A stretch of DNA of 64,000 nucleotides from Gammaproteobacteria bacterium. GTDB lineage: Bacteria > Pseudomonadota > Gammaproteobacteria > Burkholderiales > Sulfuricellaceae. Made by a program: the position numbers and the translations under genes. The stretch lies in the NCBI GenBank assembly GCA_018824405.1, contig JAHJGO010000005.1:1-64000 (forward strand), given 5' to 3'. How positions within the stretch are numbered: position 1 is the first letter of the stretch; each line of letters opens with the position of its first letter. Shown one piece after another: positions 133-23,030 of the stretch. A model generated the notes under the pieces. It was not told where the DNA came from and searched no databases. It saw nothing but the letters and a program-made list of their open reading frames with translations.

Positions 133-247
133 ATCCGCCACATCTGATATTACGCTGGCGGTGAGTAGAGCGTTTATTGGTTCCAGGTATTAATTATTAA
201 AAATGCACCGCTCCATGCCCTGGCGCGCAAGCATGGAGAATGCTGAG

Positions 248-1024
248 ATGGAACGCACGATTCTGCTGGTGGACGATGAAGCCAATATTCTTTCCGCCCT
301 GACGAGGTTGCTACGCCCGCAGGGTTATCGCATTCTGCGTGCCGGAAGCGGGAGGGAGGGGCTGGAACTGCTGGCGCAGAATGAAGTCGGGGTGATTGTT
401 TCCGACCAGCGCATGCCGGAGATGACCGGCGTGGAGTTTCTCCACCAGGTACGCGACCTTTATCCGGATACGGTGCGTATCGTGCTGTCCGGTTATACCG
501 AACTCAATTCGATCACTGACGCCATCAACCGGGGGGCAATCTATAAATTTCTCACCAAGCCCTGGGAAGATGACCTGTTACGCGCCAATATCGAAGAGGC
601 TTTTCAGCGCTACGAAATGAAACGCGAGAACGATCGTCTCAACCATGAGCTGGAAAAACGAGTGGAAGAGAAAACGCGTGAATTGACGCGCAGCCTCAAA
701 ATTCTGCAAATCTCTCAGGAGGTGCTTGAATCCTTGCCAGTGGCGGTCATCGGCATGGATAACGATGGCGTTATCGCCGTGGCTAATTCCATGGCGCACT
801 CGCTGCTCGGGCGAGGTGGGGATCGCCCGTTGCTGGGTGAGCAGGCGCAGGAAATGATTCCCAATGAATTGATGGCATGTTCTGGGGAAGCCATAGTTGC
901 CCTGCCTGACGGTACTCGCGTTCACTGCTGGCAAACTGCGATGGGCCGCCTTTCATTTTCGCAAGGCAAGGTGCTGGCGTTTGCCCCTCAACAGAAAATT
1001 GAACAGGACGGGCGGGATGCATGA
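248..1024 (+). CDS. Response regulator: RpfG-type receiver, coiled coil, PAS-like tail
   Basis: A 258-residue cytoplasmic response regulator. The receiver domain (about residues 3-120) has the VDDEANIL acidic pocket, the phospho-acceptor in VSDQRMP, and the KPW motif typical of RpfG-like receivers. A helical linker with an EKRVEEKTREL heptad (about 125-160) leads to a short PAS-like region (about 165-250) and no DNA-binding domain, so the output is probably protein-protein. ATG 248 was chosen because GGAG lies about 9 bases upstream; the longer in-frame starts at 203 and 233 lack a ribosome site. It overlaps the next gene by 8 bases, which implies translational coupling. Confidence 0.85.
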   Translation: MERTILLVDDEANILSALTRLLRPQGYRILRAGSGREGLELLAQNEVGVIVSDQRMPEMTGVEFLHQVRDLYPDTVRIVLSGYTELNSITDAINRGAIYKFLTKPWEDDLLRANIEEAFQRYEMKRENDRLNHELEKRVEEKTRELTRSLKILQISQEVLESLPVAVIGMDNDGVIAVANSMAHSLLGRGGDRPLLGEQAQEMIPNELMACSGEAIVALPDGTRVHCWQTAMGRLSFSQGKVLAFAPQQKIEQDGRDA

Positions 1025-1841
1025 GATTTTAGATAATCTGCACCAGTTGCCTTCCATTCCCGCCGTGGTGCAGGAACTGATCGTCAGTTTCGATAACCCT
1101 GATCTGGACAGCCATCATCTGGCACAGAAAATCGGCCAGGATCAGGCGCTTTCTGCCAAAGTGTTGCGGGTTGCCAATTCCGCCTTTTATGGCTTGCCGC
1201 GTCAGGTTGGCTCAATTCAGGAAGCGGTGACGGTGCTGGGTTTCGGTTCTGTGCGCAGCCTGGTGTTGTCTGCCGGATTTGTGGGGGCTTTTTCGACTGA
1301 CGATGAAGTTTGTGTCGACCGTAATCTTTACTGGCAGCGCAGCCTGGCTGCCGCCACTTATGCCAAGGCTGTCGCCAAATGTTTGCAGCAGGATGGCGAA
1401 ATGGCATTTTCCGCCGGGCTGCTGCACGATATCGGCATCCTGGTGCTGGATGTTTGTGATCACGAACGTTTCACCGCATTGTGGCAAAGCCTGCAAGGTG
1501 AAGAAAATGGACTGATCGAAGCCGAACGTGCTGCCTTTGGTTTCGACCATGCGGAATTGGGCGCGGAAGTGACGCGTCGCTGGAAATTTCCTCCTGTCAT
1601 CGAGGATGCGATTCGCTACCACTACCAGCCCGAACACCGGCCTTTTCAGGTGTTGACAGGAATCGTGCAGGTTGCCGCTTTGCTGGCGCGCTTCAGCGAG
1701 GAAAAACAGCCTGAAGAGGAATGGTTCGAGGGTATTCCTCAACCTTTGCGTGATGCATTGAAATTGGACCGGGACAAGCTGTACAAACATCTGCCACTTC
1801 CTGAGCAACTTGAAGCCGCAAAAAATCAAATATTTTCGTGA
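1017..1841 (+). CDS. HDOD domain protein
   Basis: A 274-residue protein made almost wholly of an HDOD domain (about 8-205). It opens with LHQLPSIPAVVQEL, followed by SAKVLRVANSAFYGLP and the IQEAVTVLGFGSVRSLVLS stretch that marks the family, and has a LLHDIGIL segment further on. HDOD proteins are usually non-enzymatic relatives of HD-GYP phosphodiesterases that act as signalling adaptors, often beside response regulators and c-di-GMP proteins. The ATG at 1017 lies inside the end of the preceding regulator, and the histidine kinase follows 9 bases after its stop, so the three form one operon. An upstream in-frame start would add 40 residues unlike the family and was rejected. Confidence 0.88.
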   Translation: MHEILDNLHQLPSIPAVVQELIVSFDNPDLDSHHLAQKIGQDQALSAKVLRVANSAFYGLPRQVGSIQEAVTVLGFGSVRSLVLSAGFVGAFSTDDEVCVDRNLYWQRSLAAATYAKAVAKCLQQDGEMAFSAGLLHDIGILVLDVCDHERFTALWQSLQGEENGLIEAERAAFGFDHAELGAEVTRRWKFPPVIEDAIRYHYQPEHRPFQVLTGIVQVAALLARFSEEKQPEEEWFEGIPQPLRDALKLDRDKLYKHLPLPEQLEAAKNQIFS

Positions 1842-1850
1842 GGAAACGCC

Positions 1851-3236
1851 ATGGCTTTGGATCGCATGACCAAGCTGTCCTGGATTTACGACCTTTACCA
1901 GCTGGGCCAATCATCTCACCTACTGGAAGACCCGGATAAGATCTATCAGCAGTTACTGGCCCATATTGTGACCGGTTTCGATGCCCGCAGCGGCTCTCTC
2001 GCCCTGCTCACAGAGGAGCAGAACTCGCTCACCATTGTGGCCGGGATTGACCTGCCACCCCACGTGATTGGTTGCTCCGTTGCTCTGGGTAGTGGCGTGC
2101 TGGGCTGGGTTGCCAAGGAGGGGCAGCCGCTCCTGATCAATGGCGATCTCGATCCGCAGAAATATCCGGGTATTCAACGCCGGCGTGAGCAGGCGGCGCC
2201 AAGTTCGGCCCTGTGCTGGCCGCTTAAGCTGCGCGACCGGGTCATCGGCGCGCTGAGCGTGAACCGCCCAGCCGAAAAGACGCCTTTTGCCGAGAGCGAC
2301 CGCGATCAGGGTACTGCCGTGCTCAATCTTGCCAGTCTGGCACTGGAAAATATCCAGTTGCGGCTTGATCAGCAGCGGCGCTTTGCGGAACTGCAGGCGA
2401 CCAACCAGAAACTGGCTGAGGCACAGGACCAGTTGCTGCAGGCGGAGAAAATGGCTTCCATCGGCCAGCTCGCAGCCGGGGTGGCGCATGAGATCAACAA
2501 TCCCGTCGGTTATGTAGCCTCCAATCTCAGTTCTCTCGGGCGTTACATGGATAATCTTTTGTCCCTGCTCGAAGCCTGCGATCAGCTCGATGCCAGTCTT
2601 TCTGGTGATGCGCCAGAGTTGCTGGCACTGCGTGCGCTCAAGGAAAAAATAGATCTCACCTATCTGCGCGAGGATTTGCACGACCTGCTGGCGGAATCGA
2701 AGGAAGGCCTGGAGCGGGTCAAGAAAATCGTCCTCGACCTGAAAACCTTTTCACATGTGGACGAGGCTGAATGGCAGGTCACCGATCTGCATCAGGGCCT
2801 GGACAGCACGCTCAATATCGTGTGGAACGAGCTCAAATACAAAGCCGAGGTGGTCAAGGAATATGGCACTCTGCCGGAAATAGAGTGCCTTCCTTCCCAG
2901 CTCAATCAGGTGTTCATGAACCTCATGGTCAATGCTGCACACGCCATCGAAAGCCAGGGCACCATTACCCTGCGTACTGGCCATACAGGCGAACAGGTCT
3001 GGGTGGAAGTATCCGACACCGGCAAGGGCATCGCGCCGGAAAACCTCGGCCGTATTTTTGATCCCTTTTTTACCACCAAGCCGGTGGGCACTGGCACCGG
3101 CCTGGGCTTGTCGCTTTCCTACGGTATTGTGAAAAAACATCATGGGAATATCGAAGTGGACAGCACGCTTGGCAAAGGCACGACTTTCCGCGTGTGGCTG
3201 CCGCTGAGGCAAGCCGTGAAGCAGGAAAACGGATAA
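1851..3236 (+). CDS. Soluble histidine kinase with N-terminal GAF domain
   Basis: A 461-residue kinase without signal peptide or membrane segment. A GAF domain (about 25-170) is followed by a coiled coil, then a DHp helix with the phospho-acceptor His213 in VAHEINNP and an HATPase domain (about 300-455) with NQVFMNLMVNAAHA, DTGKGI and GTGLGLSLS. The stretch from QAEKMASIGQLAAGVAHEINNP to the end is very similar to the C-terminus of the next gene, so the two kinases are paralogues. It sits between an HDOD protein and a membrane kinase, and the nearby stand-alone receivers are likely partners. The GAF ligand cannot be told from sequence. Confidence 0.9.
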   Translation: MALDRMTKLSWIYDLYQLGQSSHLLEDPDKIYQQLLAHIVTGFDARSGSLALLTEEQNSLTIVAGIDLPPHVIGCSVALGSGVLGWVAKEGQPLLINGDLDPQKYPGIQRRREQAAPSSALCWPLKLRDRVIGALSVNRPAEKTPFAESDRDQGTAVLNLASLALENIQLRLDQQRRFAELQATNQKLAEAQDQLLQAEKMASIGQLAAGVAHEINNPVGYVASNLSSLGRYMDNLLSLLEACDQLDASLSGDAPELLALRALKEKIDLTYLREDLHDLLAESKEGLERVKKIVLDLKTFSHVDEAEWQVTDLHQGLDSTLNIVWNELKYKAEVVKEYGTLPEIECLPSQLNQVFMNLMVNAAHAIESQGTITLRTGHTGEQVWVEVSDTGKGIAPENLGRIFDPFFTTKPVGTGTGLGLSLSYGIVKKHHGNIEVDSTLGKGTTFRVWLPLRQAVKQENG

Positions 3237-3251
3237 AGGACTGTGCTTACC

Positions 3252-6113
3252 ATGGTGTTCGCGAAGAAAAAAATATTTGATTCTATTTTCGGGCATAAAG
3301 GTGTGGAAAGGCGCATCAGCGCGCTTGCCGCCGCTATCCTGGTATTCACCGTGCTTGCCACCGGGACCGTTATCTTTTCTATGCTGGCCCAGCAGATAAG
3401 ATCCGAACTGAAAAACGGCCTGGTGCGGACGCTCAATGACCGAACAGCGTTGTTCCAGCAGGAAGTCGGTAAAGGCATCGACATCGCCGAAAGCATTGCA
3501 AACCGGCGGCCTCACCTTGCCAGGATGATGGTGGCAGTCAACGATGGGTCGGAGGATGAGAAAGTCCGGCGCGAAATCGGCATGGTGCTGGAGATTGTCC
3601 GTCTCGATCAGCGACTCTCGGCATTGGCCTTGTACGATTTGAGTGGCGAACTCGTGGCCAAGAGCGGGGAATTTCTCCGCGAGCCCTTTGCGGTAAGCCT
3701 GCGCCGCCCCGAGAAGGCTATGCTGAAGTGGCAGGATGGCTTTTACCTCGAGCTTGTCACAACGATGCGGCTGCAGGGGAAAAAAATCGGGACAGTGAGC
3801 ATTGAATACCCGCTTGCCACCCTCACCGCTGCATTTCTCAATTACCAGAACCATGGCGAAACCGGAGAAACTGCGCTATGTGCGGCCCTGTCACCTGAAC
3901 AGATGCGCTGCTTTCCCACTCGGCACCGCCCGCAGCCATTTGACAGTCCGCGCAGTGTTGATGGCAAGGCGCTCCCCTTGAGCCTCGCTATCGATGGAGA
4001 AAGTGGCGCGATCATGGCGACCGACTATCGCGCCCAGGATGTGTTCGATGCCTATAGCCCGGTAGGTAATAGCGGGCTGGGGATGGTCATGAAAATTGAC
4101 CAGGCCGAGCTGAGGCGGCCTATCCACGAACATTTGCTGTGGATCGTGCCGCTGCTCGCTGGTTTGCTGGCACTCGGTTTTGCGCTGCTGCGCTGGCAGG
4201 TGGGGCCGGTGGTGCGCGAGGTGGTGAATGCCAGGGCGCGGGTGCATGGCATTCTGGATAATACGGCGGACGGGATTGTGACCGCCGATGAGCAGGGCGT
4301 GGTTGAATCATTCAATTATGCCGCTGCCCGGATTTTTGGCTATCCTGCTGCCGAAGTCGTCGGCAGGAACGTCAATATGCTGATGCCGGAATCCGATCGC
4401 AGCAGACATGATGCAGGCATGCGCAACTACTTGAGCACAGGCAAGGCCCGGGTGATCGGTCACGGCTCGCGCGAGATGCGGGGGTTGCGCAAGGATGGCA
4501 CGGTTTTCCCCATGGAAATGACGCTGGGTGAAATGCGGCTGGATGGCCGGCGACTGTTTATTGCTTCGTTCCGTGACACCAGTGAGCTCATGCAGGCGCA
4601 CGATGAGCTTAAATCCAGCTTCGCAGCTTTACAGGTGGCCAGTCGTGATCTGGAAGAGACCCATGCTCAACTCAGGCGGGCGGAGCTGGACCAGGCCCAG
4701 CAAATGAATGCGCTGGCAGAAGCGAATGTGCGCATGGCACTCTTCCACGATGCCATGGAACAGGTGCGGCATGCCGATACGAGTTTCTCTACCAGCGGCG
4801 ATATGGGCGCTTTTTACCACAGCCTTCTGAACGACGTTATGTCCCTGACCGGGGCGAAATACGGCGCTGTCGGCCTGTTTGATACGAGCGGCAAGTTACA
4901 GCAGTTCCTGACCGAAGGCATCTCCGAAGAAGAGCGGCACATCATTGGCCCCTATCCGGTCGGCAAGGGCCTCCTCCAGGCTTTTTACAGGGAAAACACC
5001 ACTACGCGCATCGATAGGATCGCCGAAGACCCTCGTTCCTGCGGCTTTCCGCCGGGACACCCGCCGATGAGCAGCCTGCTCGGGGTGCCGCTGAATGTGG
5101 GTGGCAACACAAGGGGCGTGATTTATCTGACTGACAAGGATGGCGGGGCGGCATTCACGGAACAGGATGAAATGCTGGTGGAAATGGTGGCGCGGGAAGT
5201 GGAGCATATCCTGGAGCGAGGCGAACTGATGGCCAGCCTGCGTGTCAGCAACCAGGCCTTGACCCGGGAGAGAACGGAGCAGCAAAGCCTGATCGCCAAG
5301 CTGCAGGAGGCTCAGGCCCAGTTGCTGCAATCCGAGAAAATGGCCTCCATCGGCCAGTTGGCAGCAGGCGTGGCGCACGAGATCAACAACCCGATCGGAT
5401 ATGTTTATTCCAATCTCGGCAGCCTGGATAAATATATGCAGGATATTTTTTCCGTGCTGGAGTCCTTTGAAGCGGCTGAAGGCGAATTTCCGTCGAACAG
5501 CGAAAGCCTGGCAAGAATCAAGGCGCACAAGGAATCGCTCGATCTGCCTTTCCTCAAGGAAGATATCCTCGCCCTCATGGCCGAGTCGAAAGAGGGCATT
5601 ACCCGGGTGAAAAAGATCGTGCAGGATCTCAAGGACTTTTCCCATGTGGATGAAGCCGAGTGGCAGTGGAGCGATCTGCACCATGGCCTGGACAGTACGC
5701 TCAATATCGTGTGGAACGAACTCAAGTATAAGATTGAGGTGGTCAAGGAGTATGGTGACCTGCCTGAAGTGGAATGCATTCCTTCCCAATTGAACCAGGT
5801 ATTCATGAATCTGCTGGTCAATGCGGGCCATGCCATCGAAAGCAAGGGGACCATCACCATTCGCACCGGCCAGGAGGGCGATCAGGTGTGGGTGGAAATT
5901 GCGGATAACGGCAAGGGCATCGAAGCTGCGCATCTCAAGCGCATATTCGAACCTTTTTTCACCACCAAACCAATCGGAAAGGGCACCGGACTGGGCTTGT
6001 CTTTATCCTATGGCATCGTGACGAATCATCATGGACACATTCAGGTAGAAAGTACGCCGGGCTTGGGTACATCGTTCCGTGTCTGGTTACCGATCCGGCA
6101 AGCTGCCGCCTGA
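3252..6113 (+). CDS. Membrane histidine kinase with FixL-like PAS and GAF domains
   Basis: A 953-residue sensor kinase. Two membrane segments (about 20-43 and 293-316) enclose a periplasmic sensor of about 250 residues. Next come a PAS domain (about 325-450) close to that of FixL, a coiled coil, a GAF domain (about 500-660), a DHp domain with a phospho-acceptor His near residue 709 in VAHEINNP, and an HATPase domain. The PAS carries DRSRHD, in which His386 aligns with the proximal haem ligand of rhizobial FixL; the propionate-contacting Arg and His positions of FixL are not kept exactly. ATG 3252 was preferred to GTG 3243 because AAAGGA at 3235-3240 is well spaced for it. The FixJ-like gene starts 5 bases after the stop. 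Confidence 0.9.
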   Translation: MVFAKKKIFDSIFGHKGVERRISALAAAILVFTVLATGTVIFSMLAQQIRSELKNGLVRTLNDRTALFQQEVGKGIDIAESIANRRPHLARMMVAVNDGSEDEKVRREIGMVLEIVRLDQRLSALALYDLSGELVAKSGEFLREPFAVSLRRPEKAMLKWQDGFYLELVTTMRLQGKKIGTVSIEYPLATLTAAFLNYQNHGETGETALCAALSPEQMRCFPTRHRPQPFDSPRSVDGKALPLSLAIDGESGAIMATDYRAQDVFDAYSPVGNSGLGMVMKIDQAELRRPIHEHLLWIVPLLAGLLALGFALLRWQVGPVVREVVNARARVHGILDNTADGIVTADEQGVVESFNYAAARIFGYPAAEVVGRNVNMLMPESDRSRHDAGMRNYLSTGKARVIGHGSREMRGLRKDGTVFPMEMTLGEMRLDGRRLFIASFRDTSELMQAHDELKSSFAALQVASRDLEETHAQLRRAELDQAQQMNALAEANVRMALFHDAMEQVRHADTSFSTSGDMGAFYHSLLNDVMSLTGAKYGAVGLFDTSGKLQQFLTEGISEEERHIIGPYPVGKGLLQAFYRENTTTRIDRIAEDPRSCGFPPGHPPMSSLLGVPLNVGGNTRGVIYLTDKDGGAAFTEQDEMLVEMVAREVEHILERGELMASLRVSNQALTRERTEQQSLIAKLQEAQAQLLQSEKMASIGQLAAGVAHEINNPIGYVYSNLGSLDKYMQDIFSVLESFEAAEGEFPSNSESLARIKAHKESLDLPFLKEDILALMAESKEGITRVKKIVQDLKDFSHVDEAEWQWSDLHHGLDSTLNIVWNELKYKIEVVKEYGDLPEVECIPSQLNQVFMNLLVNAGHAIESKGTITIRTGQEGDQVWVEIADNGKGIEAAHLKRIFEPFFTTKPIGKGTGLGLSLSYGIVTNHHGHIQVESTPGLGTSFRVWLPIRQAAA

Positions 6114-6118
6114 GTACC

Positions 6119-6763
6119 ATGGCGTTCTCTCAAGTCCATTTGAAGCTGGAGCCGACGGTTTACATTGTCGACGACGATTCCGAAATGCGCAGCGCGCTTC
6201 ACCGGATGGTGCGGGTGGCCGGAATGAGGGCGGAATCTTTTGACAGCGCTGTGGCCTTTCTTGCAGGCTATCATTCAGATCGTCCAGGCTGTTTGCTGCT
6301 TGATGTGAGGATGCCTTGCATGAGCGGTCTGGAATTGCAGCAACGTCTCAAACTCGAACGCGTGAATATTCCCATTATTTTTCTTACCGGTTACGGAAAT
6401 GTTACGGCGGCAGTCAGCGCAATGAAATTGGGCGCGCTGGATTTTTTCGAAAAACCTTTCGATAACGAGGCGCTGCTCGATCGTCTGCGACAGGCCATCC
6501 AGATGGACGAGGCAGCCCGTTTGGCGCGCCTTCATTACAGCCAGAGCAGCCACTTGCTGGCACACCTTACCCCACGTGAGCGTGAAATCATGGATATGCT
6601 GGTGGCCGGCAAGTCCAACAAAAATATTGCCGATCTGCTCGGAGTGAGCATCAGAACGGTGGAAACCCACCGCGCAAATATCATGGACAAGATGCAGGTC
6701 GAATCCCTGGCCGATCTGGTGCGTATGGCACTGGGCCTCAGGATTGACAAACAGGACCATTGA
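6119..6763 (+). CDS. FixJ-type response regulator
   Basis: A 214-residue transcription factor. The receiver domain (about 12-125) has VDDDSEMR, phospho-acceptor Asp62 in LLDVRMP, the switch Thr in FLTGYGN, and FEKPF. A LuxR/FixJ helix-turn-helix (about 148-205) contains LTPREREIMDMLVAGKSNK and SIRTVETHRANIMDKM, the signature of the FixJ subfamily. It lies 5 bases after the FixL-like kinase and is the only gene of the island with a recognisable DNA-binding domain. Targets are unknown; the palindromes just downstream (6765-6798) are candidate operators. FixJ homologues often answer to oxygen or to respiratory electron acceptors, but that is family knowledge and not shown here. Confidence 0.93.
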   Translation: MAFSQVHLKLEPTVYIVDDDSEMRSALHRMVRVAGMRAESFDSAVAFLAGYHSDRPGCLLLDVRMPCMSGLELQQRLKLERVNIPIIFLTGYGNVTAAVSAMKLGALDFFEKPFDNEALLDRLRQAIQMDEAARLARLHYSQSSHLLAHLTPREREIMDMLVAGKSNKNIADLLGVSIRTVETHRANIMDKMQVESLADLVRMALGLRIDKQDH

Positions 6764-6764
6764 G

Positions 6765-6873: not shown

Positions 6874-9800
6874 ATGGCAACTGGGTCACCTCCGGCCAAA
6901 CAACATACTGCTTCACGGATTTTTTCCTGGACTCCCTTGCTGGTGTTTGCGCTATTGGCTTTCGCCATTGGCGTCACCGGATTTTTCGTATTCAGTCGGC
7001 ATCAGGAAAACGTTAAAAACGAAGCGCATGACATGCTGGGTGCCATCGCTGATCTGAGAGTGAGTCAGGTCGTCAAATGGCGTGAGGCTTACAAGCAAAG
7101 CGCCGAGGTGATGACCCACGACCCCATGCTGGCGATGGAAATCGAGCGCTGGTTGCAGCACGGTTCGCCACTTGATCAAAACGCGCAACGGATCGTGCAG
7201 CGCCTGAAAGCGGTGCAGCATGCCTATGATTTTCAGGGCGTGTTTATACTCGACGAGTTCGGGGTCGTGCAAGGCTTGCCAGTGACGCCGGAAGCCAAGC
7301 CACCTACTGCTGTCGGGGTGCAAATGGTCATGGAAGCCATGCGAACCCGGAAAATTCTTCTGACTGATCTGCACCCGGGCGCCGAAGCGCCGCGCGTCCG
7401 GCTGGATCTGGTGGTGCCGATTTTCGCTGACGGTGACGTCAGCAAGCAGGTCATTGCGGGAATTTATTTTCGCATCGACCCGCAATCCTATCTTTTCCCT
7501 CTGCTGCAATCCTGGCCGACCCCCAGTCCGAGCGCCGAAGCCATGCTGGTCCGGCATGAAGGGAATGAAGTGGTTTATCTGAACCAGTTGCGTTACCGCG
7601 ACAATACGGCGTTGCAACTGCGACTTCCGGTAAGCGAAAGGGAATTGCTGGCTGCCAAGTGGGCGCGAGGTAATGAAGGTTTGAAAGAAGGCCTCGATTA
7701 CAGGGGAATCCAGACCATCGCTGCGGCAAGAAAAATTCCGGATTCCCCCTGGTTTCTGATTGTCAAAATGGACAAGGAAGAGCTCTACGCCCCGGTCCGC
7801 AGGACTGCCTGGATCGTGGCGCTCCTGACTTTCGCCTTCATTGGCGGAGCGGCGGCGATCACGGGGCTGTGGTGGCGTCAGCAGCGCGCGCAATTTCAGG
7901 CCACTCAATACGCAAGCGAACTCCGCCATCATGCGTTGATGCAGCGTAGCGAACGGAATACCAGCCTTCTTCTGGAGTCTGTCGCCGAGGCTATCTATGG
8001 GGTGGACATGGAGGGATTGATCACTTTCGTAAACCCGGCCTGTCTTAGCATGTTGGGTTACGATCGGGAAGACGAACTGCTTGGCCAGCATGCTCACGAA
8101 TTGTTCCATCATAGCCACGCAGACGGTTCCCCCTACCCGGCAGAAAAGTGCCGTGCTTATGAAGCCTATTTGAGCGAACAGGGCGTCCATGTGGACGACG
8201 AGGTGTTCTGGCGCAAGGATGGCACAGCTTTCCCCGTGGAGTATCGGTCCTATCCGATCCGTCACGCAGGGCAGATCGAAGGTTCTGTCATTACCTTCAT
8301 GGACATCACCGAGCGCAAACGGGCGGAGCAGCAACTGCGCCTTTCCGCCCAGGTGTTCGAGGACAGCCTGGAAGCCATTTTTATCACCAATGCCCGGAAT
8401 GTCATCGTTTCGGTCAACCAAGCCTTCATCGATACTACCGGCTACACCCCGGGTGAGGCGCTTGGCCAAAGCCCGAGCATGCTGAAATCGGGGCGCCACG
8501 ATGCCGAATTCTTCCGCAACATGATGGAAAGCATCCACAGCTCCGGTCACTGGCAGGGTGAGATCTGGAATAAACGCAAGAATGGTGAAATCTACCCGGC
8601 CTGGATGGCGATCAGCGCCATCCACAACGACAGGGGAGAAGTCACCCATTATGCCGCGATCTACAGTGATATCAGCGAGCTCAAGGCGGTGGAGGAAAAC
8701 CTGCGGCTCTGGGCCCGTGCGATGGAATCCAGCGTCAATGCCATATTCATCACCGACGCCAGGCAGGAAGACTACCCGATTTTCTATGTCAACCCCGCAT
8801 TCGAGCGCATTACCGGTTTTTCCAGTGCAGAAGTGGTAGGCAAGAGCTGTCGCATGCTTGACAACGAGGGGCTGAACCAGCCTCAAATCGAGGAAATCTA
8901 CCAGGCCATTCGCGAGCAGCGCGACGGCAGCGCCGTGTTGTGCAACTACCGCAAGGATGGCAGCCTGTTCTGGGTCGAACTGTTTTTTTCCCCGGTGCGT
9001 GACGGGAATGACAAGCTTACCCATTTTGTCGGAGTCATGAATGACATCACCGAGCGCAAGCGCTACGAGGAACAGCTTGAACGGCATGCCAATTACGACG
9101 ACCTGACAGGTCTGCCCCTGCGAAATCTGCTGCAAGACCGCCTGTCCCAGTCGCTGGCCTATGCGCGGCAGCGAGAGGGTGAACTGGCTGTGCTGTATCT
9201 CGATCTGGACAATTTCAATCTGGTGGTCAACAGCCTCGGGCACGCTAACGCCGACCAATTGCTCAAGGCTATCGCCGGGCGTCTGACGTCCTGTATCGGT
9301 GAGGGCGATAGCGCGGCGCGCTGGAGTGGCGACGAGTTCGTGCTGGTGCTGTCCAAACTTGAGAGCGAAACCGATATTTCCCTGCGGGTGCAGAAAATCC
9401 TGCAGGTCATGTCCGAGCCCTTTGTCATCGCAGGACAGGAGCTGTATGCCACCTTCAGCATTGGCATCGCGCAATATCCCAAGGACGGCCTGAATGCGGA
9501 CGATCTGCTGAAAAATGCCGATGCCGCCATGTACCGTGCCAAGGACATGGGGCGCAACAACTTCCAGTTTTACGGGGAGGAGATGAACCTTCAGGCGATG
9601 GAGCGGCTGATGCTGGAAAACGGCTTGCGCCATGCCCTGGAACGAGATGAGTTCGAGGTGTATTACCAGCCGAGGGTGGATCTGCAGCGCGGCATAATGG
9701 TCGGGATGGAGGCGCTGCTGCGCTGGAACCATCCGGAACTGGGTCTGGTTTCTCCAGTCAGTTTCATTCCGCTGGCGGAAGAAACCGGCCTGATCGTGCC

Positions 9801-10848
9801 GATTGGCGAATGGGTGCTGCGCACCGCCTGTGCCCAGAACAGGGTGTGGCAGGAAGAAGGCTTTGCGCCGGTCAGCGTTTCCGTCAATCTGTCTGCACGC
9901 CAGTTCTGGCAGCAGGATCTGGTGGAGGTGGTGGCAGCGGCGCTCAGTGAATCCCGGCTCGACCCTGCCTGGCTGGAGCTGGAAATCACCGAAAGCCTGC
10001 TGATGCAGAATGCCGAGGTAGCCAATGCCACCTTGAGGAAGCTCAAGGCGATGGGAATCCGATTGTCAATCGACGATTTTGGAACCGGCTATTCCTCGCT
10101 CAGTTATCTGAAGCGCTTTCCGATCGATACCTTGAAGATCGATCGCTCCTTCGTGCGCGACATTACAACGGATCCAGACGATGCGGCAATAGCCCGGGCG
10201 GTGGTTTCACTGGCCCACGACATGAAGCTGAAAGTGGTCGCGGAAGGGGTGGAAACCATTGAGCAAATGGCATTTCTGCGCTTGCGGCACTGTGACGAAA
10301 TCCAGGGATACTATTTCAGCAAGCCGTTGCCGGTAGCTGCGTTCGCCGCGCTGCTCGGGGAGGGCCGCTGCCTGCAAGTCGAGCCCACAGGCGAAAGGGG
10401 GGAGGAGCGCACCCTGCTCTTGCTCGATGACGAGGCCAATATCCTCTCTGCATTGGCACGCCTGCTGAGACGGGATAATTACACCATTCTCAGGGCGACC
10501 AATGCCGATGAAGCGTTCAACCTGCTGGCCACGCATCGCGTTGGCGTGATCCTGACCGATCAGCGCATGCCGGGAATGAGCGGCACTGAATTCCTGCGGC
10601 GGACAAAGCAGCTTTACCCCGAAACTGTGCGTATGGTCCTGTCCGGTTTTACCGAATTAAAGAGCGTTACCGATGCCATCAATGAGGGATCGGTGTACAA
10701 ATTCCTGACCAAACCCTGGGATGACGATCAGTTGCGCGACAATATCGAGGAAGCTTTCAGATATTATGAATTGACGCGGGAAAACGAGCGCCTTGCCAAT
10801 GAGATCATCAAAGCGAACGAAGCACTGGCAAAACAGCAGCCGGCATGA
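6874..10848 (+). CDS. Membrane PAS-GGDEF-EAL protein with C-terminal receiver domain
   Basis: A 1324-residue c-di-GMP protein. An N-terminal membrane helix (about 17-38), a periplasmic sensor (about 40-308) and a second helix (about 310-333) precede three PAS domains (about 365-735), a GGDEF domain, an EAL domain (about 915-1165) and a receiver domain (about 1180-1300, phospho-acceptor Asp1229 in LTDQRMP). The cyclase signature reads SGDEF at about 817-821, so synthase activity is uncertain. The EAL site looks complete: [31 protein letters not shown] and QGYYFSKP. A receiver placed after EAL is uncommon; it is closely related to the other receivers of this island. ATG 6874 has a purine-rich AGGAAAAA upstream. 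Confidence 0.92.
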
Positions 10849-11038
10849 AGCGGCGACCTGAGGGAAAATACATCAATCTGCATTGTCACTTGGGCATAAT
10901 CCAGCAGCAAGGGAAGACCAGAAAAGAAGAATGAGGTATTCTTCCTTCATGAAAAATGTCATACGGCGTTTATATTGCTTGTCGTGCTTGTGATATAAAT
11001 CTCCGTTGATTTTTTCGGATTTTGCAACTTTTACTGAT

Positions 11039-12367
11039 ATGAGCATGAGCGAAAGCGAGCCACTGACCTCTGCAGTCAAACCTGCCACCCTGCTGTTCGT
11101 GGATGACGAGCCGAATATTCTGAGCGCGTTGCGGCGGCTGTTTCGCCCCCTCGGCTACAAGATCCATACTGCGGGCGGGGGGGCTGAAGGGCTGACGCTG
11201 CTTGAGCAGGAGCCTGTGGACCTGGTGATTTCGGATATGCGCATGCCCAGCATGGATGGCGCCCAGTTTCTCGAACAGGTACGCCAAAAATGGCCCGATA
11301 CCATGCGTATCCTGCTCACCGGCTATGCCGATGTGAGCTCCACCATTGCCGCCATCAACAAGGGCGAAATTTTCCGCTACGTTGCCAAACCATGGAATGA
11401 CGACGATATCGTTTTGCTGGTGAAGCAGGCGCTGGAGCTGAAAAATCTCGAGCTGGAAAAAAAACGCCTGGAAGAGCTGACGTTGCGTCAGAACGATGAA
11501 CTCAAGGAACTGAATGCCAGTCTGGAAGCCAAGGTGCAGGAACGCACCCAGGAAGTTCGCCAGACCATGGGCTTTCTCGAACTCGCCAACAAGAAGCTGA
11601 AAGACGGCTTCATTACCTCGATCAAGATCTTTTCCAATCTGATCGAACTCAGGGAGCGTTCCCTCGCCGGGCATTCCCGGCGTGTGGCAGATCTGGCGCG
11701 CAATCTTGCCAAGGGCTTGAATCTTTCTGGTAGTGATGTGAATGATATTTTTGTCGCTGCCCTGTTGCATGATATTGGCAAAATCGGTTTGCCAGACAAT
11801 TTGCTGTCCAAACCTTTCGCTACCCTTGTGGGTGAGGATCGCGATCTGGTGCTGCGCCATCCTGCAACTGGCCAGGCCGCGCTCATGGGTCTGGAACAAC
11901 TTCATGGCGCGGCCAGGCTGATTCGCGCTCATCACGAGCGCTGGGATGGCATGGGTTTCCCTGACGGACTGTCCGGCCTGGCGATCCCCATGGGTGCCCG
12001 CATCCTGGCCCTTGCCAATGATTACGATGCTGTCCAGATCGGCACGCTGCTCAGCAAAAGGATGAAACCTGCTGAAGCCGTCACCTTCATTATCGAGGGC
12101 CGTGGCAAACGCTATGATCCCCAGGTGGTCGATGTTTTTGCGCCCATGATGGGCGCTGCGAGCGCAGCCGTTGCCGAAGTGAGCGTCAAGTCCGGGCAGC
12201 TGAAAGTGGGAATGGTGCTGTCGCGGGATCTGATAACACCTGAGGGCATTCTGTTGTTGTCCAAGGATTTTGTGCTGAACGAAGAAATAATTGAACAGGT
12301 ACACAGTTTCGAGAGATCGTCAGGGCGGGTTTTGACTCTCTTTATTCATGCCAAAAAAGGGGAGTAA
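11039..12367 (+). CDS. RpfG-like response regulator: receiver plus HD-GYP domain
   Basis: A 442-residue predicted c-di-GMP phosphodiesterase. The receiver (about 15-130) has VDDEPNIL, Asp66 in ISDMRMP and AKPWND. A coiled coil (about 140-180) leads to an HD-GYP domain (about 185-360) with HDIGKIGLP (His244-Asp245) and HHERWDGMGFPDGL, where the GYP tripeptide is GFP. A further region of about 60 residues ends the protein. A TTG at 11006 opens the frame further upstream, but ATG 11039 gives the normal receiver start; neither has a strong ribosome site. The next regulator starts 2 bases after the stop. Confidence 0.9.
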   Translation: MSMSESEPLTSAVKPATLLFVDDEPNILSALRRLFRPLGYKIHTAGGGAEGLTLLEQEPVDLVISDMRMPSMDGAQFLEQVRQKWPDTMRILLTGYADVSSTIAAINKGEIFRYVAKPWNDDDIVLLVKQALELKNLELEKKRLEELTLRQNDELKELNASLEAKVQERTQEVRQTMGFLELANKKLKDGFITSIKIFSNLIELRERSLAGHSRRVADLARNLAKGLNLSGSDVNDIFVAALLHDIGKIGLPDNLLSKPFATLVGEDRDLVLRHPATGQAALMGLEQLHGAARLIRAHHERWDGMGFPDGLSGLAIPMGARILALANDYDAVQIGTLLSKRMKPAEAVTFIIEGRGKRYDPQVVDVFAPMMGAASAAVAEVSVKSGQLKVGMVLSRDLITPEGILLLSKDFVLNEEIIEQVHSFERSSGRVLTLFIHAKKGE

Positions 12368-12369
12368 TT

Positions 12370-12921
12370 ATGTATCGCATCATGCTGGTGGATGACGAAG
12401 AAAACATTCTCAAGGCCTTGCGCCGGTTGTTGACGATTACTCCTTGTGTATATGATGGAATCGAATACAAGATCAGGGTGGAGAGCTTTTCCAGCGCCGA
12501 TGAAGCCCTTGAGTTTGCGCGCCACAATGCAGTCGATCTGGTTCTGTCCGACTATCGCATGCCGCGCAAGGATGGCGTGGCTTTCCTGAAGGAATTCAAG
12601 GAAATCCAGCCTAACGCGGCGCGTTTGATTTTGTCCGGCTATGCTGACCTGAATGCGCTGATGGGCGCTATCAACGAGGCTCAGATCTACCGTTTTCTCA
12701 ACAAGCCATGGAACGATTACGAGCTGGTATCGAGCATTGCCCAGGCATTGGCCTATCGCAACCTGATGCTGGAAAACCAGCATCTGGCAGACAAGGCGCG
12801 TGTTGATAATGGAGCCATGACGCCACAGGAACTGGAACGTAAACGCCTTGAGGAACTGGAGCCAGGCATTACCACGGTCAACTGGGGACCGGATGGATCA
12901 GTGATTTTCGATGATTTGTAG
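12370..12921 (+). CDS. Stand-alone receiver protein of the RpfG-receiver type
   Basis: A 183-residue response regulator with one receiver domain (about 1-130): VDDEENIL, acceptor Asp in LSDYRMPRKDG, LSGYADL, NKPWNDYEL. A stretch of about 15 residues, TITPCVYDGIEYKIRV, is inserted between the first helix and second strand compared with its neighbours. The C-terminal 50 residues hold a charged helix (PQELERKRLEELEPG) and a short tail, with no known output domain. It follows the HD-GYP gene by 2 bases and precedes the MglA-like GTPase by 30 bases, so it may link kinase input to the GTPase or to the receiver-bearing ATPase. Confidence 0.88.
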   Translation: MYRIMLVDDEENILKALRRLLTITPCVYDGIEYKIRVESFSSADEALEFARHNAVDLVLSDYRMPRKDGVAFLKEFKEIQPNAARLILSGYADLNALMGAINEAQIYRFLNKPWNDYELVSSIAQALAYRNLMLENQHLADKARVDNGAMTPQELERKRLEELEPGITTVNWGPDGSVIFDDL

Positions 12922-12951
12922 ATTCAAAGCGTGAGAGGGTAAGGAGTCGGC

Positions 12952-13596
12952 ATGCCTGAATTCGACCCGCAAACCAGCAAGCTCACCTTCAAGCTGGTCT
13001 ACTATGGCCCCGCTCAAGGTGGCAAGACGACCAATTTGATGAAGCTTCATGATCTGGTCGCCCCGGACATGAAGGGCGAAATCATGACGCTGGAAACGCA
13101 GAATGACCGCACGCTGTTCTTTGACCTGCTCCCACTCGGATTTCGCGCGTCTTCAGGCTTGCTGGTGAAGTTCCGTCTTTTTACCGTGCCAGGACAGGTG
13201 GCCCATGACGGGACGCGCAAGGCGGTGCTGTCGCGCGCCGATGGCGTGGTATTCGTGGCGGATTCGCAGAAAACCCAGAGCATCAATAATGGCGAGTCCT
13301 TCCAGAATCTGGCGGATAACGTCGCGAGAGTCGGGCTCAATTTCGAGAAGCTGCCGCTGGTCGTTCAATTCAACAAGCGTGACCTGCCCGACATCCTGAG
13401 CGAGGATGAAGTCAGGCAACGCTGGTCGTCTGCCCCTTGGCCCCTGCTGTTTGCTTCCGCGCTGGATGGTTCGGGCGTGCGCGAAACGTTTGCTGCCCTG
13501 CTGCGCCAGGTGTATCAGGTATCTGATGCGGAATTCGATTTCCAGAATCAGCACGGCCTGGATGAGGAAGCTTTCGTCAAGGGCGCCATGGGATGA
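12952..13596 (+). CDS. MglA-like small Ras-family GTPase
   Basis: A 214-residue GTPase matching the MglA family of polarity GTPases. It has the P-loop in YYGPAQGGKTTNL, the family's TVPGQV in place of DxxGQ at the G3 site, VVFVADSQ, and the G4 box FNKRDLP. MglA of Myxococcus sets the leading pole and directs type IV pili and gliding machinery; its GAP is the Roadblock protein MglB. No Roadblock gene is visible in this window. AAGGAG precedes ATG 12952. The stop overlaps the start of the following histidine kinase (ATGA, 13593-13596), and a PilB-like ATPase lies after that, which supports a role in pilus or motility control. Confidence 0.93.
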   Translation: MPEFDPQTSKLTFKLVYYGPAQGGKTTNLMKLHDLVAPDMKGEIMTLETQNDRTLFFDLLPLGFRASSGLLVKFRLFTVPGQVAHDGTRKAVLSRADGVVFVADSQKTQSINNGESFQNLADNVARVGLNFEKLPLVVQFNKRDLPDILSEDEVRQRWSSAPWPLLFASALDGSGVRETFAALLRQVYQVSDAEFDFQNQHGLDEEAFVKGAMG

Positions 13597-14810
13597 GCGA
13601 TCATCTGCCAGTTCCATCTTTTGACCGTGAAATGGGCTTCGCGGAATTGCTCGCAGATATTCCGCGCGAACGCCTGCAAAAGGCGCTGGTGCTTCTACTT
13701 GGCGGCGCATTTCGGCTCGTGGACGCCACCGGAAACGTGCTGATTGGCGCATCCATTGCTTCGGAACAAGCTCGGCGAATGCCGGTGGTGCTCGAACTCG
13801 AACCGGTGGGTTACCTGGAATGCGTCAATGCGGATGAGTCGAGAATGCAAAGTGCAGTGGCGCTGCTGGAATTGCTGCTGCGTGGTGCCGCGCGTTACAA
13901 GATGGCTTCCGGCTTGCATATCGAGTCAGTTCAGGCCGACTATGAAACCCTGAAACGCAAGCATGCCGCGCTGGAGGAATCCGAAGCGCGCTTCAAAACG
14001 CTTTCGGAACAACTGGAAGTGCGGGTGCAGGAGCAGGTCAGGGCGCTGGAAGAATCAAGCCGCCAGCTCTATCAGGCAGAAAAAATGGCCTCGGTTGGGC
14101 GCCTCGCTGCGGGCGTGGCGCATGAGATCAATAACCCCATCGGCTTTGTACGCAGCAATTTGTCCACAGCCCAGGCATACCTGGAAAAATTCGCGTCCCT
14201 TGATGAGGCCATCAGTTCAGGACAACCGCTGGCTCAGCGCTGGAAAGAGCTGAATATGGGGTTTGTGCTTGAAGATTTCGACGATTTGCTCAAGGAAAGC
14301 ATCAGCGGGATTGACCGTGTCGCGCGTATCGTTGCCGACCTCAAGGGATTTTCCAACGTCGATCGCGGCGAAGAGGAGATGGCTGATCTCAACGAAAGCC
14401 TGCGCCAGGCCTGCCAGGCGATTGCCGGACATTTGCCGCAGGGTGTCGAAGTGGTTCAGGAACTGGGAGACATCCCGCGTGTTCTGTGCCTGCCCGGCTA
14501 CCTCAATCAGGCTTTTCTTAATCTATTGGAGAATGCCCTGCAGGCTGTATCCGCTGGTGGAGAAATCAAGGTTAAAACAGTCCGTGAAGGCGACGAGATT
14601 GTGATTGCGATCAGCGATAACGGTTGCGGCATACCGGAAGATGTATTGCAACAGGTTTTCGAACCCTTTTTTACAACCAAGGACGTGGGACTCGGGACCG
14701 GTTTGGGGCTCACCGTGGTCCGTGATATTGTGAGAGTTCATGGCGGCAAGGTGTCCATCGAAAGCCTGCCCGATGCCGGCACCACAGTCACGATTCGATT
14801 ACCCGTGTAA
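13593..14810 (+). CDS. Soluble histidine kinase coupled to the MglA-like gene
   Basis: A 405-residue cytoplasmic kinase. The N-terminal 110 residues (GGAFRLVDATGNVLIGAS...) form a small sensor-like domain that I do not recognise. A long coiled coil (about 115-165) leads to a DHp helix with His177 in VAHEINNP and an HATPase domain (about 280-402) with NQAFLNLLENALQA, DNGCGIPEDV and GTGLGLTVV. The catalytic part resembles the kinases at 1851 and 3252 but is more diverged. ATGA overlap with the GTPase gene implies coupled translation. The receiver-bearing ATPase starts 11 bases downstream and is its most obvious phosphotransfer partner. Confidence 0.9.
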   Translation: MSDHLPVPSFDREMGFAELLADIPRERLQKALVLLLGGAFRLVDATGNVLIGASIASEQARRMPVVLELEPVGYLECVNADESRMQSAVALLELLLRGAARYKMASGLHIESVQADYETLKRKHAALEESEARFKTLSEQLEVRVQEQVRALEESSRQLYQAEKMASVGRLAAGVAHEINNPIGFVRSNLSTAQAYLEKFASLDEAISSGQPLAQRWKELNMGFVLEDFDDLLKESISGIDRVARIVADLKGFSNVDRGEEEMADLNESLRQACQAIAGHLPQGVEVVQELGDIPRVLCLPGYLNQAFLNLLENALQAVSAGGEIKVKTVREGDEIVIAISDNGCGIPEDVLQQVFEPFFTTKDVGLGTGLGLTVVRDIVRVHGGKVSIESLPDAGTTVTIRLPV

Positions 14811-14821
14811 GCACGACCAAA

Positions 14822-17059
14822 ATGGCCAGTTACGCTTCTTTATTTACCGGCACTTCAGCCGAGGAAACCAGCCAGCCGCAGGAACCGGCAGAACAATACC
14901 GCCTGCTCCTGGTGGATGATGAGCCTAATGTGCTCAAGGCATTGCAGCGCGTATTCCGTCAGGAAAACTATCTCGTTGCCACTGTGCCCAATGCAGGCGA
15001 AGCTCTGCGTCTGATGGGCCAGGGCGCCTTTCATCTGGTGATCAGCGACTACATGATGCCGAACATGAATGGCGCTGAATTTCTCAAGCAGGTCAAATCG
15101 CTTTACCCCGAAACTATCCGCATCATGCTCACGGGACACGCCGACACCGGCGCGGTCATGGGGGCCGTCAACGAAGGGGCTGTCTACAAGTTCATTCTCA
15201 AGCCCTGGAACGATGATGATTTGCGCATTACCGTAGCGCTGGCGCTGGAGCAGTTTGACCTGATCCGCAAGAACCGCGTCCTGCAACAGGACAACAGCAA
15301 AAAAACAAAAGAGATCAGCGCGCTCTCCAAGCTTTCAGTGTCCAACCGCAGCCAGCTGGCGATCATGCTGAACAAGCATGGCTTGCTGAATTCCAATCAG
15401 GTCCAGGAACTGCACCGCCTGCAGCAGAAAAACAAGGAGCCGGTAATCAAGCTGCTGCTCGACAAGGGCTGGGTTCAGGAAAAAGAAGTGCATCGTCTGC
15501 TGCGCAAGGAATTGCTGTTCGATGAGGTGTCGCTGGCTGAGTTTCAGGTCGACACGGCGCTGGCGGATCTGATTCCGCGCAGCTTTTGCGAGCGCCAACT
15601 GGTCGTGCCGCTGAAGCTTGAGGGGCGGCGCATGATGCTGGCGGTCGCGGATCCGCTTGATTCCGGCCTGATGGATGACTTGCGCTTCACCTCCGGCCTG
15701 GATGTGGATGCAGTGCTGGCCAGCGTGGTGTCGATCAAGGCCAAGATCGCTGAGGTGTACGGCAGCGAAGAGGAAATCGTCAATTTCGATGAACTGGAGA
15801 CCCTGGTGTCCAGTGCCGATCCCTACGAAGGCATCGAGGTGGTCATCGAGGATGACGAAGAAAATATTTCCCTGGAAGAGCTTTTGCACGGCACTGAAGA
15901 GCCGCCCGCAATTCGCCTGGTGAATGCCGTACTTCTTGAGGCAATCCGCCTCGGTGCCTCGGATATCCACATCCAGCCGCGCACCAAAAGCGTGGTGGTG
16001 CGCCTCAGGATCGATGGGGTGCTGGTGGACAAGATCCAGATCCCGCACCAGCTGCACCAGTCGATGGTGTCGCGTCTCAAGATCATGTCCGAGCTGGATA
16101 TCTCGGAACGTCGCCGCCCTCAGGACGGGCGTCTGATGGTGAAGACGCCGATGCGCGTGGTGGATCTGCGGATTTCAACCTTGCCCACCATCAATGGTGA
16201 AAAGGTGGTGATGCGCATCCTTGATCGCAACTCTGCCGTGCACAGTCTGGCCGGCCTGGGCTTTGGGCCGCAGGCGCTGCGGCAGATCCTCAACATGGTA
16301 GACAAGCCGCAGGGCATTATCCTCGCCACCGGGCCGACCGGATCTGGCAAGACGACCACCCTGTATTCGCTGCTGCAGCACAACGCCACGCCGACCAAGA
16401 ACTACGTCACCATCGAAGACCCTGTGGAGTATTACCTCGACATGGCCGGCCAGGTGCTGATCAAGGAAAAAATCGGCCTGACCTTTCCCGTGATCTTGCG
16501 CTCCATTCTGCGCCAGGACCCGGACGTGATCCTGCTGGGCGAGATCCGCGATTTCGAAACTGCCGAAGTGGCGTTCCATGCGGCACTGACCGGTCACCAG
16601 GTGTTTTCCACCCTGCATACCAATTCTGCCATCGCGACCATTTCCCGCCTGCTGGATCTGGGGCTCAAGCCTTATGTCATTGCCACCGCGCTTCAAGGCA
16701 TTATCGCCCAGCGGCTGGTGCGGAAGATTTGTGAGCACTGCCGCGAGCCCGCCATACCGGATGCGCAACTTTTGTCCCGTCTGGGCGAAGTATTTCAGCA
16801 GGAGGGCTTGCAGGTATTCCGGGGCAAGGGCTGCCCTGAATGTCATGGCAGCGGCTACAAGGGCCGGCTGGGTTTATATGAAGTGCTGACGCTGGACGAT
16901 CAGCTGAGGCATCTGGTAGGCACAGGTGCGAGCCTGCTGGACATTGCCCAGACAGCGAGGAAAAGCGGTCTTATTCCTCTGACTGACGATGCGCGCGACA
17001 AGGTTCACCAAGGTTTGACGACGCCGGAAGAAATATTGCGCGTGCTGGGGCCGCAGTAG
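14822..17059 (+). CDS. PilB/GspE-type ATPase with N-terminal receiver domain
   Basis: A 745-residue fusion. Residues 27-145 are a receiver (VDDEPNVL, Asp76 in ISDYMMP, KPWNDDD) of the same kind as elsewhere in the island. An MshEN-like N1 domain (about 170-315) follows, then a secretion/pilus assembly ATPase (about 350-720) with Walker A GPTGSGKTT (about 504-512), the Asp box IEDPVEYYL, Walker B ILLGEIRD, the His box TGHQVFSTLHTN, and a tetracysteine zinc site (CEHC near 638, CPEC near 671). It is longer than ordinary PilB (about 570) by the receiver. No other pilus structural genes are adjacent. The arrangement suggests an extension ATPase gated by phosphorylation, which is an inference. Confidence 0.93.
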   Translation: MASYASLFTGTSAEETSQPQEPAEQYRLLLVDDEPNVLKALQRVFRQENYLVATVPNAGEALRLMGQGAFHLVISDYMMPNMNGAEFLKQVKSLYPETIRIMLTGHADTGAVMGAVNEGAVYKFILKPWNDDDLRITVALALEQFDLIRKNRVLQQDNSKKTKEISALSKLSVSNRSQLAIMLNKHGLLNSNQVQELHRLQQKNKEPVIKLLLDKGWVQEKEVHRLLRKELLFDEVSLAEFQVDTALADLIPRSFCERQLVVPLKLEGRRMMLAVADPLDSGLMDDLRFTSGLDVDAVLASVVSIKAKIAEVYGSEEEIVNFDELETLVSSADPYEGIEVVIEDDEENISLEELLHGTEEPPAIRLVNAVLLEAIRLGASDIHIQPRTKSVVVRLRIDGVLVDKIQIPHQLHQSMVSRLKIMSELDISERRRPQDGRLMVKTPMRVVDLRISTLPTINGEKVVMRILDRNSAVHSLAGLGFGPQALRQILNMVDKPQGIILATGPTGSGKTTTLYSLLQHNATPTKNYVTIEDPVEYYLDMAGQVLIKEKIGLTFPVILRSILRQDPDVILLGEIRDFETAEVAFHAALTGHQVFSTLHTNSAIATISRLLDLGLKPYVIATALQGIIAQRLVRKICEHCREPAIPDAQLLSRLGEVFQQEGLQVFRGKGCPECHGSGYKGRLGLYEVLTLDDQLRHLVGTGASLLDIAQTARKSGLIPLTDDARDKVHQGLTTPEEILRVLGPQ

Positions 17060-20930: not shown

Positions 20931-20946
20931 TGGCATGAGAATTGCC
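20931..20946 (+). promoter_or_regulatory. Possible sigma-54 -24/-12 element before nasT
   Basis: TGGCATGAGAATTGCC has GG and GC at the correct 12-base spacing. The predicted start site, about 20957, falls only 3 bases before the nasT ATG and would exclude its ribosome site, so either the transcript is leaderless or the match is accidental. GGTGC half-sites at about 20810 and 20852 upstream recall NtrC half-sites but form no clean palindrome. Confidence 0.3.
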
Positions 20947-20959
20947 TTGTTGGGAGGAT

Positions 20960-21565
20960 ATGAAAACTCCCGTTAATTCTTCTGAACCTTCGCTGCGTGT
21001 CTTGCTGGTAGATGAAACCTTCGAACGCGCGGCACTACTCAAGCATGCCTTGCAGGATGCGGGTTATAAAATCGTTGCTCATGTCTCTGCCAGCGCGGAT
21101 TTGCCAGGCCTGGTCGCTGAGCTTAAACCGGATCTCATTATTCTGGATACCGAGTCTCCTGACCGCGATACGCTGGAAAATCTCTGTGTTATCAAACGTA
21201 ATCAACCGCGCCCCATCGTAATGTTCACTCATGACAATGACGCTGAAAAGATACGCGCAGCCATTCGCGCCGGGGTCAGTGCATATGTGGTGGATGGCCT
21301 CAAAAGCGAGCGTTTGCGCCCCATCATGGATGTGGCGATAGCACGTTTCAACGAATTTCAGGCCATGCGGATGGATCTGGAAAAGGCGGAAAGCAAGCTC
21401 TCGGAGCGCAAAGACGTGGAACGTGCCAAGGGAATTCTGATGAAACAGCGCGGCTGCTCCGAGGAGGAGGCTTATCAGGCTTTACGTAAATCCGCCATGG
21501 ATAAGGGATTGCGGCTGTCTGAAGTGGCGTCTCAGGTTATTACGGTAGCAGAGTTGTTGGTGTGA
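20960..21565 (+). CDS. nasT: NasT-type ANTAR antitermination regulator
   Basis: A 201-residue response-regulator-like protein. The receiver (about 11-125) has VDET and Asp63 in IILDTESP, followed by a coiled coil and an ANTAR RNA-binding domain (about 140-198) with ERAKGILMKQRGCSEEEAYQALRKSAMDKGLRLSEVA, the conserved AKGILM and AY.LR elements. NasT binds paired hexaloop hairpins in the leader of nitrate assimilation operons and prevents termination; in known systems NasS holds it back until nitrate binds. Its predicted RNA target lies directly downstream (21601-21656). No nasS is visible. ATG 20960 follows GGGAGG closely; an upstream TTG was rejected. Confidence 0.92.
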   Translation: MKTPVNSSEPSLRVLLVDETFERAALLKHALQDAGYKIVAHVSASADLPGLVAELKPDLIILDTESPDRDTLENLCVIKRNQPRPIVMFTHDNDAEKIRAAIRAGVSAYVVDGLKSERLRPIMDVAIARFNEFQAMRMDLEKAESKLSERKDVERAKGILMKQRGCSEEEAYQALRKSAMDKGLRLSEVASQVITVAELLV

Positions 21566-21573
21566 CAAGAACC

Positions 21574-21589
21574 TGGCACGCTTAGTGCT
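21574..21589 (+). promoter_or_regulatory. Sigma-54 promoter of the nrtA operon
   Basis: TGGCACGCTTAGTGCT matches the -24/-12 consensus (TGGCACG-N4-TTGCT) with GG and GC 12 bases apart. The predicted transcription start is about 21600, exactly where the first leader hairpin begins. Sigma-54 use implies an activator such as NtrC, so nitrogen-limitation control is inferred. No obvious NtrC palindrome was found just upstream, where the nasT coding end lies. Confidence 0.8.
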
Positions 21590-21600
21590 TTAAGATAAGC

Positions 21601-21656
21601 GACAGCCCAACGGCGGGTTGTCAACAAGATTCAAATGATTCGGTCAATGTCGACCG
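21601..21656 (+). promoter_or_regulatory. ANTAR-target leader RNA: two hexaloop hairpins
   Basis: Hairpin 1 pairs GACAGCCC (21601-21608) with GGGTTGTC (21615-21622) around loop AACGGC. Hairpin 2 pairs CGGTC (21641-21645) with GACCG (21652-21656) around loop AATGTC. Both loops are six bases with A at position 1 and G at position 4, the defining features of ANTAR-bound RNA. An intrinsic terminator follows at 21667. The element sits between nasT and nrtA and starts at the predicted sigma-54 transcription start. Confidence 0.88.
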
Positions 21657-21666
21657 GAGCAAGGAC

Positions 21667-21718
21667 AAAGGCGTCCATTCGCGAAAGTTAATTCATTCGC
21701 GGATGTGACGCCTTTTTT
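21667..21718 (+). terminator. Intrinsic terminator in the nrtA leader (attenuator)
   Basis: A strong stem: AAAGGCGTCCATTCGCGAA on the left pairs with TTCGCGGATGTGACGCC on the right around a 10-base loop, followed by TTTTTTG. It lies between the two ANTAR hairpins and the nrtA start at 21747, so it is expected to stop transcription unless NasT binds the leader. Confidence 0.9.
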
Positions 21719-21746
21719 GTTTTGTGTTTTTTATCAGGAGAAAACC

Positions 21747-23000: not shown

Positions 23001-23030
23001 TCAATCCATCACTGATATGAGAGGTACATC

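Follow-up and report, generated by a model that had tools for sequence, protein, structure and literature searches.

The gene at 14822..17059 on the forward strand of the window, by which we mean the whole 64,000-nucleotide stretch of DNA analysed, encodes a 745-residue assembly ATPase with an N-terminal receiver (REC-PilB), and we consider it, with a probability of roughly 0.6, to be an accessory extension motor of type IVa pili (T4aP) whose engagement would be set by phosphorylation of its own receiver and which would work with a dedicated MglA GTPase. The uninterrupted open reading frame is a REC-MshEN-T2SSE fusion by Pfam (Response_reg at residues 29-137, 1.3e-23; MshEN at 236-318, 1.1e-18; T2SSE at 359-740, 2.6e-129), and alignments together with a structure model delimit a receiver (27-145), a long alpha5 helix (131-173), an MshEN region (about 175-318) and an ATPase (359-740) carrying four zinc cysteines. 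These domains and the invariant residues of receiver and ATPase bear out the original prediction, in which a receiver was joined to MshEN and a full ATPase, and the further statement that ordinary PilB lacks a receiver agrees with the result that the ten other PilB/GspE-type ATPases encoded in this genome are all without a receiver match.

The active site of the receiver is intact. D32, D76, T104, K127, P128 and W129 are invariant in 46 aligned orthologues, D33 is conserved as well, and in an alignment of 81 sequences T104, P128 and W129 are kept throughout, as is the phosphoacceptor D76 in all 80 sequences that have a letter there. Because this site is conserved, REC-PilB is likely under phosphorylation control. 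The structure prediction that had been suggested for the receiver gave a complete (beta-alpha)5 fold, with alpha5 running continuously into the MshEN helices (mean pLDDT 76.6, pTM 0.51; the placement of the receiver relative to the ATPase is unreliable). The ATPase is complete: the Walker A box TGPTGSGK (503-510), the GEIRD region with the catalytic Glu and Asp box (573-577), the His box TLHTN (597-601) and the zinc cysteines C637, C640, C671 and C674 are all invariant in the 46 orthologues and, with T2SSE, assign the protein to the PilB/GspE assembly ATPase superfamily, while the best match of the modelled ATPase is a solved PilB (5tsh, TM 0.88 on target). The zinc cysteines and MshEN mark REC-PilB, on sequence grounds, as a member of the extension class and not of PilT. 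At its N-terminus (window 14822-14851) a peptide with the consensus MxxYASLFTG, whose F8 is kept in at least 90% of the sequences, precedes a disordered stretch and then the receiver, and could be a docking motif.

The assignment to a subfamily is less straightforward. REC-PilB scored below the curated cut-offs of the canonical PilB model TIGR02538 (565.8 bits vs. 675.65), the GspE model TIGR02533 (540.6 vs. 630.25) and the TfpB model NF053534 (448.6 vs. 850), and is therefore a member of the superfamily that falls outside every named subfamily. A tree of ATPase cores places the REC-PilBs in a single, long-stemmed group with 100/100 support, separate from PilB, TfpB, GspE and the GAF-carrying PilB, although the deep forks of this tree are weak. 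The GAF-PilB proteins constitute their own clade, and represent another sensor-fused motor. Orthologues of REC-PilB, full-length or nearly so, were found at 58-90% identity in at least 80 loci (one genome per species), which rules out chance or an assembly artefact; the hosts are beta- and gammaproteobacterial species, at least 80 in number, among them Sulfuricella-like and Gallionella-like bacteria, Rhodocyclales, Burkholderiales, Formivibrio and Andreprevotia, as well as Ectothiorhodospiraceae, Hahella, Pseudomonas and Stutzerimonas. In the surveys, 25 of 300 genomes of the order, from 12 families, and 8 of 370 genomes of the class carried it. The family search thus upheld the fusion as real and phylogenetically separate, but not as a one-off: what had been taken for an unusual design is a conserved family of many species, and the combination of REC with MshEN had already been mentioned in general terms (PMC5013675).

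The MshEN region of other assembly ATPases can bind c-di-GMP through two motifs of 24 residues separated by a spacer of 5 (PMC5013675). Not even one relaxed copy was detected in any of the 81 REC-PilBs, while two ATPases of the same genome used as positive controls (C17b and C4) both showed the two copies at the expected 29-residue spacing. Binding of c-di-GMP through the MshEN of REC-PilB is consequently unsupported, and the loss of the motifs from all 81 sequences leads us to infer that phosphate input may have replaced second-messenger input in this family.

The conserved module of REC-PilB contains no recurring platform, pilin or secretin gene, and its pilus partner was for this reason deduced from co-occurrence. 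The type IVa pilus gene pilP was present in 25/25 carriers of the order vs. 206/275 other genomes (p 0.001), a modest difference calculated ignoring phylogeny and genome size, and a canonical PilB above the cut-off occurred in 31 of 32 carriers. As the carriers own both T4aP and canonical PilB, REC-PilB would be an extra motor. The one exception (G068) has a REC-PilB minus its first ~193 residues; the idea that this receiverless copy had assumed the main role of PilB was considered and rejected, since the residues are missing beside a glycosyltransferase-like gene and the copy is probably truncated. A separate pilus or pseudopilus dedicated to REC-PilB, distinct from the housekeeping T4aP and with a platform of its own encoded at another genomic site, appears unlikely. 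Such a machine would be in keeping with the long stem of the REC-PilB clade, with the location of REC-PilB beside a pilin gene and a TPR membrane protein gene in one sub-clade, and with the seven PilC-type platforms encoded in the 3 Mb genome; however, all seven lie on other contigs and near other ATPase genes, so that none is obviously free for REC-PilB, whose own contig has no platform gene, and the conserved neighbourhood has no recurring pilin or platform gene. The genome encodes eleven PilB/GspE-type and three PilT-type ATPases, the ten besides REC-PilB including true GspE, PilB and TfpB proteins, and contigs C4, C12, C17, C18, C20 and C24 of this genome (G000) display PilC-type platforms together with PilB/GspE-type ATPases, a rich set of motors.

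REC-PilB is the last gene of a run of about 17 kb (window 203-17059) of co-directional signalling genes, comprising kinases, receivers, HDOD, GGDEF-EAL, HD-GYP and LuxR-type proteins, all on the forward strand; promoter and terminator scans gave results near chance level. Judged by their position, the genes at 203..6763 (a REC protein, HDOD, a GAF-kinase, a PAS/GAF-kinase and REC-LuxR) may act in the same pathway as the REC-PilB module. They are followed by a PAS-GGDEF-EAL-REC gene (6874..10848; Pfam and synteny), a less conserved neighbour upstream of the core module, by a REC-HD-GYP gene for a predicted c-di-GMP phosphodiesterase (11006..12367; Response_reg and HD_5), found at 50/69 REC-PilB loci and with the motif HHExxDGxG[YF]P in 37 of 52 sequences, and by a gene for a single receiver with a conserved C-terminal tail (12370..12921; Response_reg), found at 56/73 loci, whose acidic residues, Asp61 and Lys112 are invariant in 46 sequences. 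A NasT-type regulator-like gene and nitrate-type ABC transporter-like genes, recognised by inspection of the sequence, lie at 20942-24420, downstream of dnaX and recR. With nothing but signalling genes around it, those for GGDEF-EAL and HD-GYP proteins included, this orphan ATPase might also be no longer a motor at all; under the control of its receiver it could instead compete with PilB for the platform, as a scaffold or an inhibitor, or it could be a regulator in the c-di-GMP pathway of the cluster. We regard this as improbable, given that the nucleotide-binding and hydrolysis motifs and the zinc cysteines are all invariant and that MshEN has lost its c-di-GMP motif.

The gene immediately before REC-PilB (13593..14810), placed 11 bases upstream as originally noted, encodes a cytosolic histidine kinase according to Pfam (HisKA and HATPase_c), the model and synteny, with a small N-terminal alpha/beta domain, a long coiled coil, a DHp domain (His177 in HEINNP) and a CA domain. 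H177 is invariant in 41 orthologues, the ATP-binding boxes are kept, and the kinase adjoins REC-PilB in 71 of the 74 loci with enough upstream sequence; it is likely the phosphodonor of REC-PilB. The window also encodes other kinases that share the HEINNP-type core, as well as several similar receivers, hence cross-talk is possible. In a relative (L040:9992-10912) two extra receiver-like segments separate the kinase from REC-PilB.

The partner most strictly tied to REC-PilB, which the original prediction had overlooked, is a Ras-like GTPase of the MglA family (12952..13596, forward strand), identified by solved MglA structures in the PDB (E 1e-44) and by its signature residues. Group 1 of this family is defined by an intrinsic Arg beside the G2 Thr and by TVPGQ (PMC4316618), and the protein belongs to it with R53 beside the G2 Thr54, TVPGQ in G3 and NKRD; R53, T54, TVPGQ, Q82 and GKT were invariant in 67/67 sequences. 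MglA lies upstream of REC-PilB in 70 of the 73 loci with enough upstream sequence. In the order survey (E up to 1e-20, 300 genomes) it was detected in 22 of the 25 genomes with REC-PilB and in 0/275 others (Fisher p 2e-30, phylogeny ignored), while in the class survey all eight genomes with REC-PilB had MglA, the four other matches being two distant proteins (28-30% identity) and two damaged orthologues, one minus ~26 residues and the other in a locus of MglA and REC-PilB remnants. Decay of the module can be seen at L157:8013-9233 (genome G604), where matches to the kinase, REC-HD-GYP and REC persist and both MglA and REC-PilB are fragments. A roadblock GAP (MglB) was absent from 24 of 25 carriers, and the lone match, covering 34 of 91 positions, is unconvincing. 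A roadblock-like GAP within the N-terminal domain of the kinase was likewise considered and is unsupported, the model showing the small alpha/beta domain and the fold matches listed being histidine kinases.

Not every locus has the complete module. In L099, L101 and L107 REC-PilB is found without MglA or kinase nearby, as it is in G170 and G199. The first three seem to form a single derived sub-clade; in the tree, L099 and L101 pair inside the REC-PilB group, and all three loci have genes for a type IV pilin and a TPR membrane protein upstream of REC-PilB. A GAF-PilB gene occurs near REC-PilB in L101 and L107, followed in L101 by a GAF-HD-GYP gene; in the genome under study (contig C26, L134:5495-9481) a GAF-PilB of 782 aa likewise precedes a protein resembling the GAF-HD-GYP of L101. 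Since the pilin-linked sub-clade retains REC-PilB without MglA or kinase nearby, MglA is not indispensable, and it might be supposed that the adjacent MglA is a passenger of the operon structure and that the motor is controlled by kinase and receiver only. This is doubtful, because among the 300 genomes of the order MglA never occurred without REC-PilB, the two genes decayed jointly in G604, and their pairwise distances correlate (r 0.89, 67 loci), partly through common descent. Type II secretion, finally, can be rejected as the partner, and a two-component-controlled motor of type II secretion is a very remote reading: REC-PilB is of the same superfamily and scores nearly equally with the GspE and PilB models, but its GspE score is below the cut-off, a true GspE is encoded elsewhere in the genome, and the marker GspL is absent from 13/32 carriers, some of them with genomes in one or two contigs, and therefore type II secretion cannot be the general partner.

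For the accessory T4aP motor that we favour, a scheme of action may be proposed, in which the phosphotransfer partner, the sign of the effect, the contact with MglA and the platform are all conjectural. Asp76 would receive its phosphate from the adjacent kinase or from related ones in the cluster; because the last receiver helix runs straight into the MshEN helices, phosphorylation should alter the pairing of the receivers and with it the N-terminal MshEN ring, which in turn would determine whether the ATPase hexamer fires or engages a PilC-type platform. A signal of place and time would come from MglA-GTP, by which REC-PilB would be brought to, or licensed at, one pole, a role modelled on Myxococcus xanthus, in which MglA acts through SgmX on the localisation of PilB (PMC7519303). 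REC-PilB would act in trans on the ordinary T4aP machine beside canonical PilB, as does TfpB of Acinetobacter baylyi, a second extension motor, of distinct phylogeny, that PilB-bearing genomes encode at a site apart from pilC (PMC8213720).

Comparison with known systems helps to delimit the proposal. REC-PilB shares MshEN and T2SSE domains, zinc cysteines, all ATPase motifs and the nearest solved structures with canonical PilB (TIGR02538), from which it differs in its N-terminal receiver, its separate clade, its position not beside pilC and its coexistence with a true PilB. It resembles TfpB as a second extension motor away from pilC, although the genome's own TfpB (on contig C17, scoring 904.5 bits vs. 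the cut-off of 850) has no receiver and no MglA-kinase module has been reported for TfpB. In MshE and other c-di-GMP-regulated ATPases the signal also enters via the N-terminal MshEN region (PMC5013675), whereas in REC-PilB the input would be a receiver phosphate. The MglA-SgmX-PilB pathway (PMC7519303) and SofG (discussed in PMC4316618) similarly tie a Group 1 MglA to a T4P extension motor with receiver proteins in the pathway, but here MglA, kinase and motor belong to one gene run, the receiver is fused to the motor and no convincing roadblock GAP is present. FimX-PilZ-PilB and PdeK-PdeR of Xanthomonas and Pseudomonas also put the extension motor under two-component and c-di-GMP control, with the receiver on a separate protein (PMC11656802) and not in cis as in REC-PilB. 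The actinobacterial conservons (CvnA kinase, CvnD MglA) likewise join a histidine kinase and an MglA-family GTPase in one conserved operon, yet with a Group 2 MglA, with MglB and without a motor (PMC4316618).

In the openly accessible literature searched we found no description of an MglA-kinase-REC-PilB module, of REC-PilB/GspE fusions or of MglA-PilB operons, and an earlier mention elsewhere is possible; a survey of MglA gene neighbourhoods in 2014 called Group 1 variable (PMC4316618), and such a fusion is unmentioned in the passages retrieved from a Ramlibacter genome paper with three PilB paralogues. The company that REC-PilB keeps across many bacteria, a kinase and a Ras-like switch protein, may point to a hitherto undescribed means of directing the growth of pili. 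Control of pilus motors is known mostly to depend on separate adaptor proteins or on c-di-GMP, and the connection of MglA with pili is known from Myxococcus and Bdellovibrio. Tentatively, and at somewhat less than even odds, we see in the kinase, the MglB-less Ras-like GTPase and the phosphoreceiver motor a self-contained pilus command module in which phosphate licenses and GTP positions, giving Beta- and Gammaproteobacteria pilus polarity and signal control parallel to that of Myxococcus but wired into the motor. An MglA without MglB raises the question of how it is switched off, and a motor with its own phosphoreceiver poses a direct one, namely whether phosphorylation gates a hexameric extension ATPase. 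The strict link to the GTPase would extend the MglA-pilus connection to many culturable Beta- and Gammaproteobacteria, such as Dechloromonas, Azonexus, Zoogloea, Hahella and Stutzerimonas.
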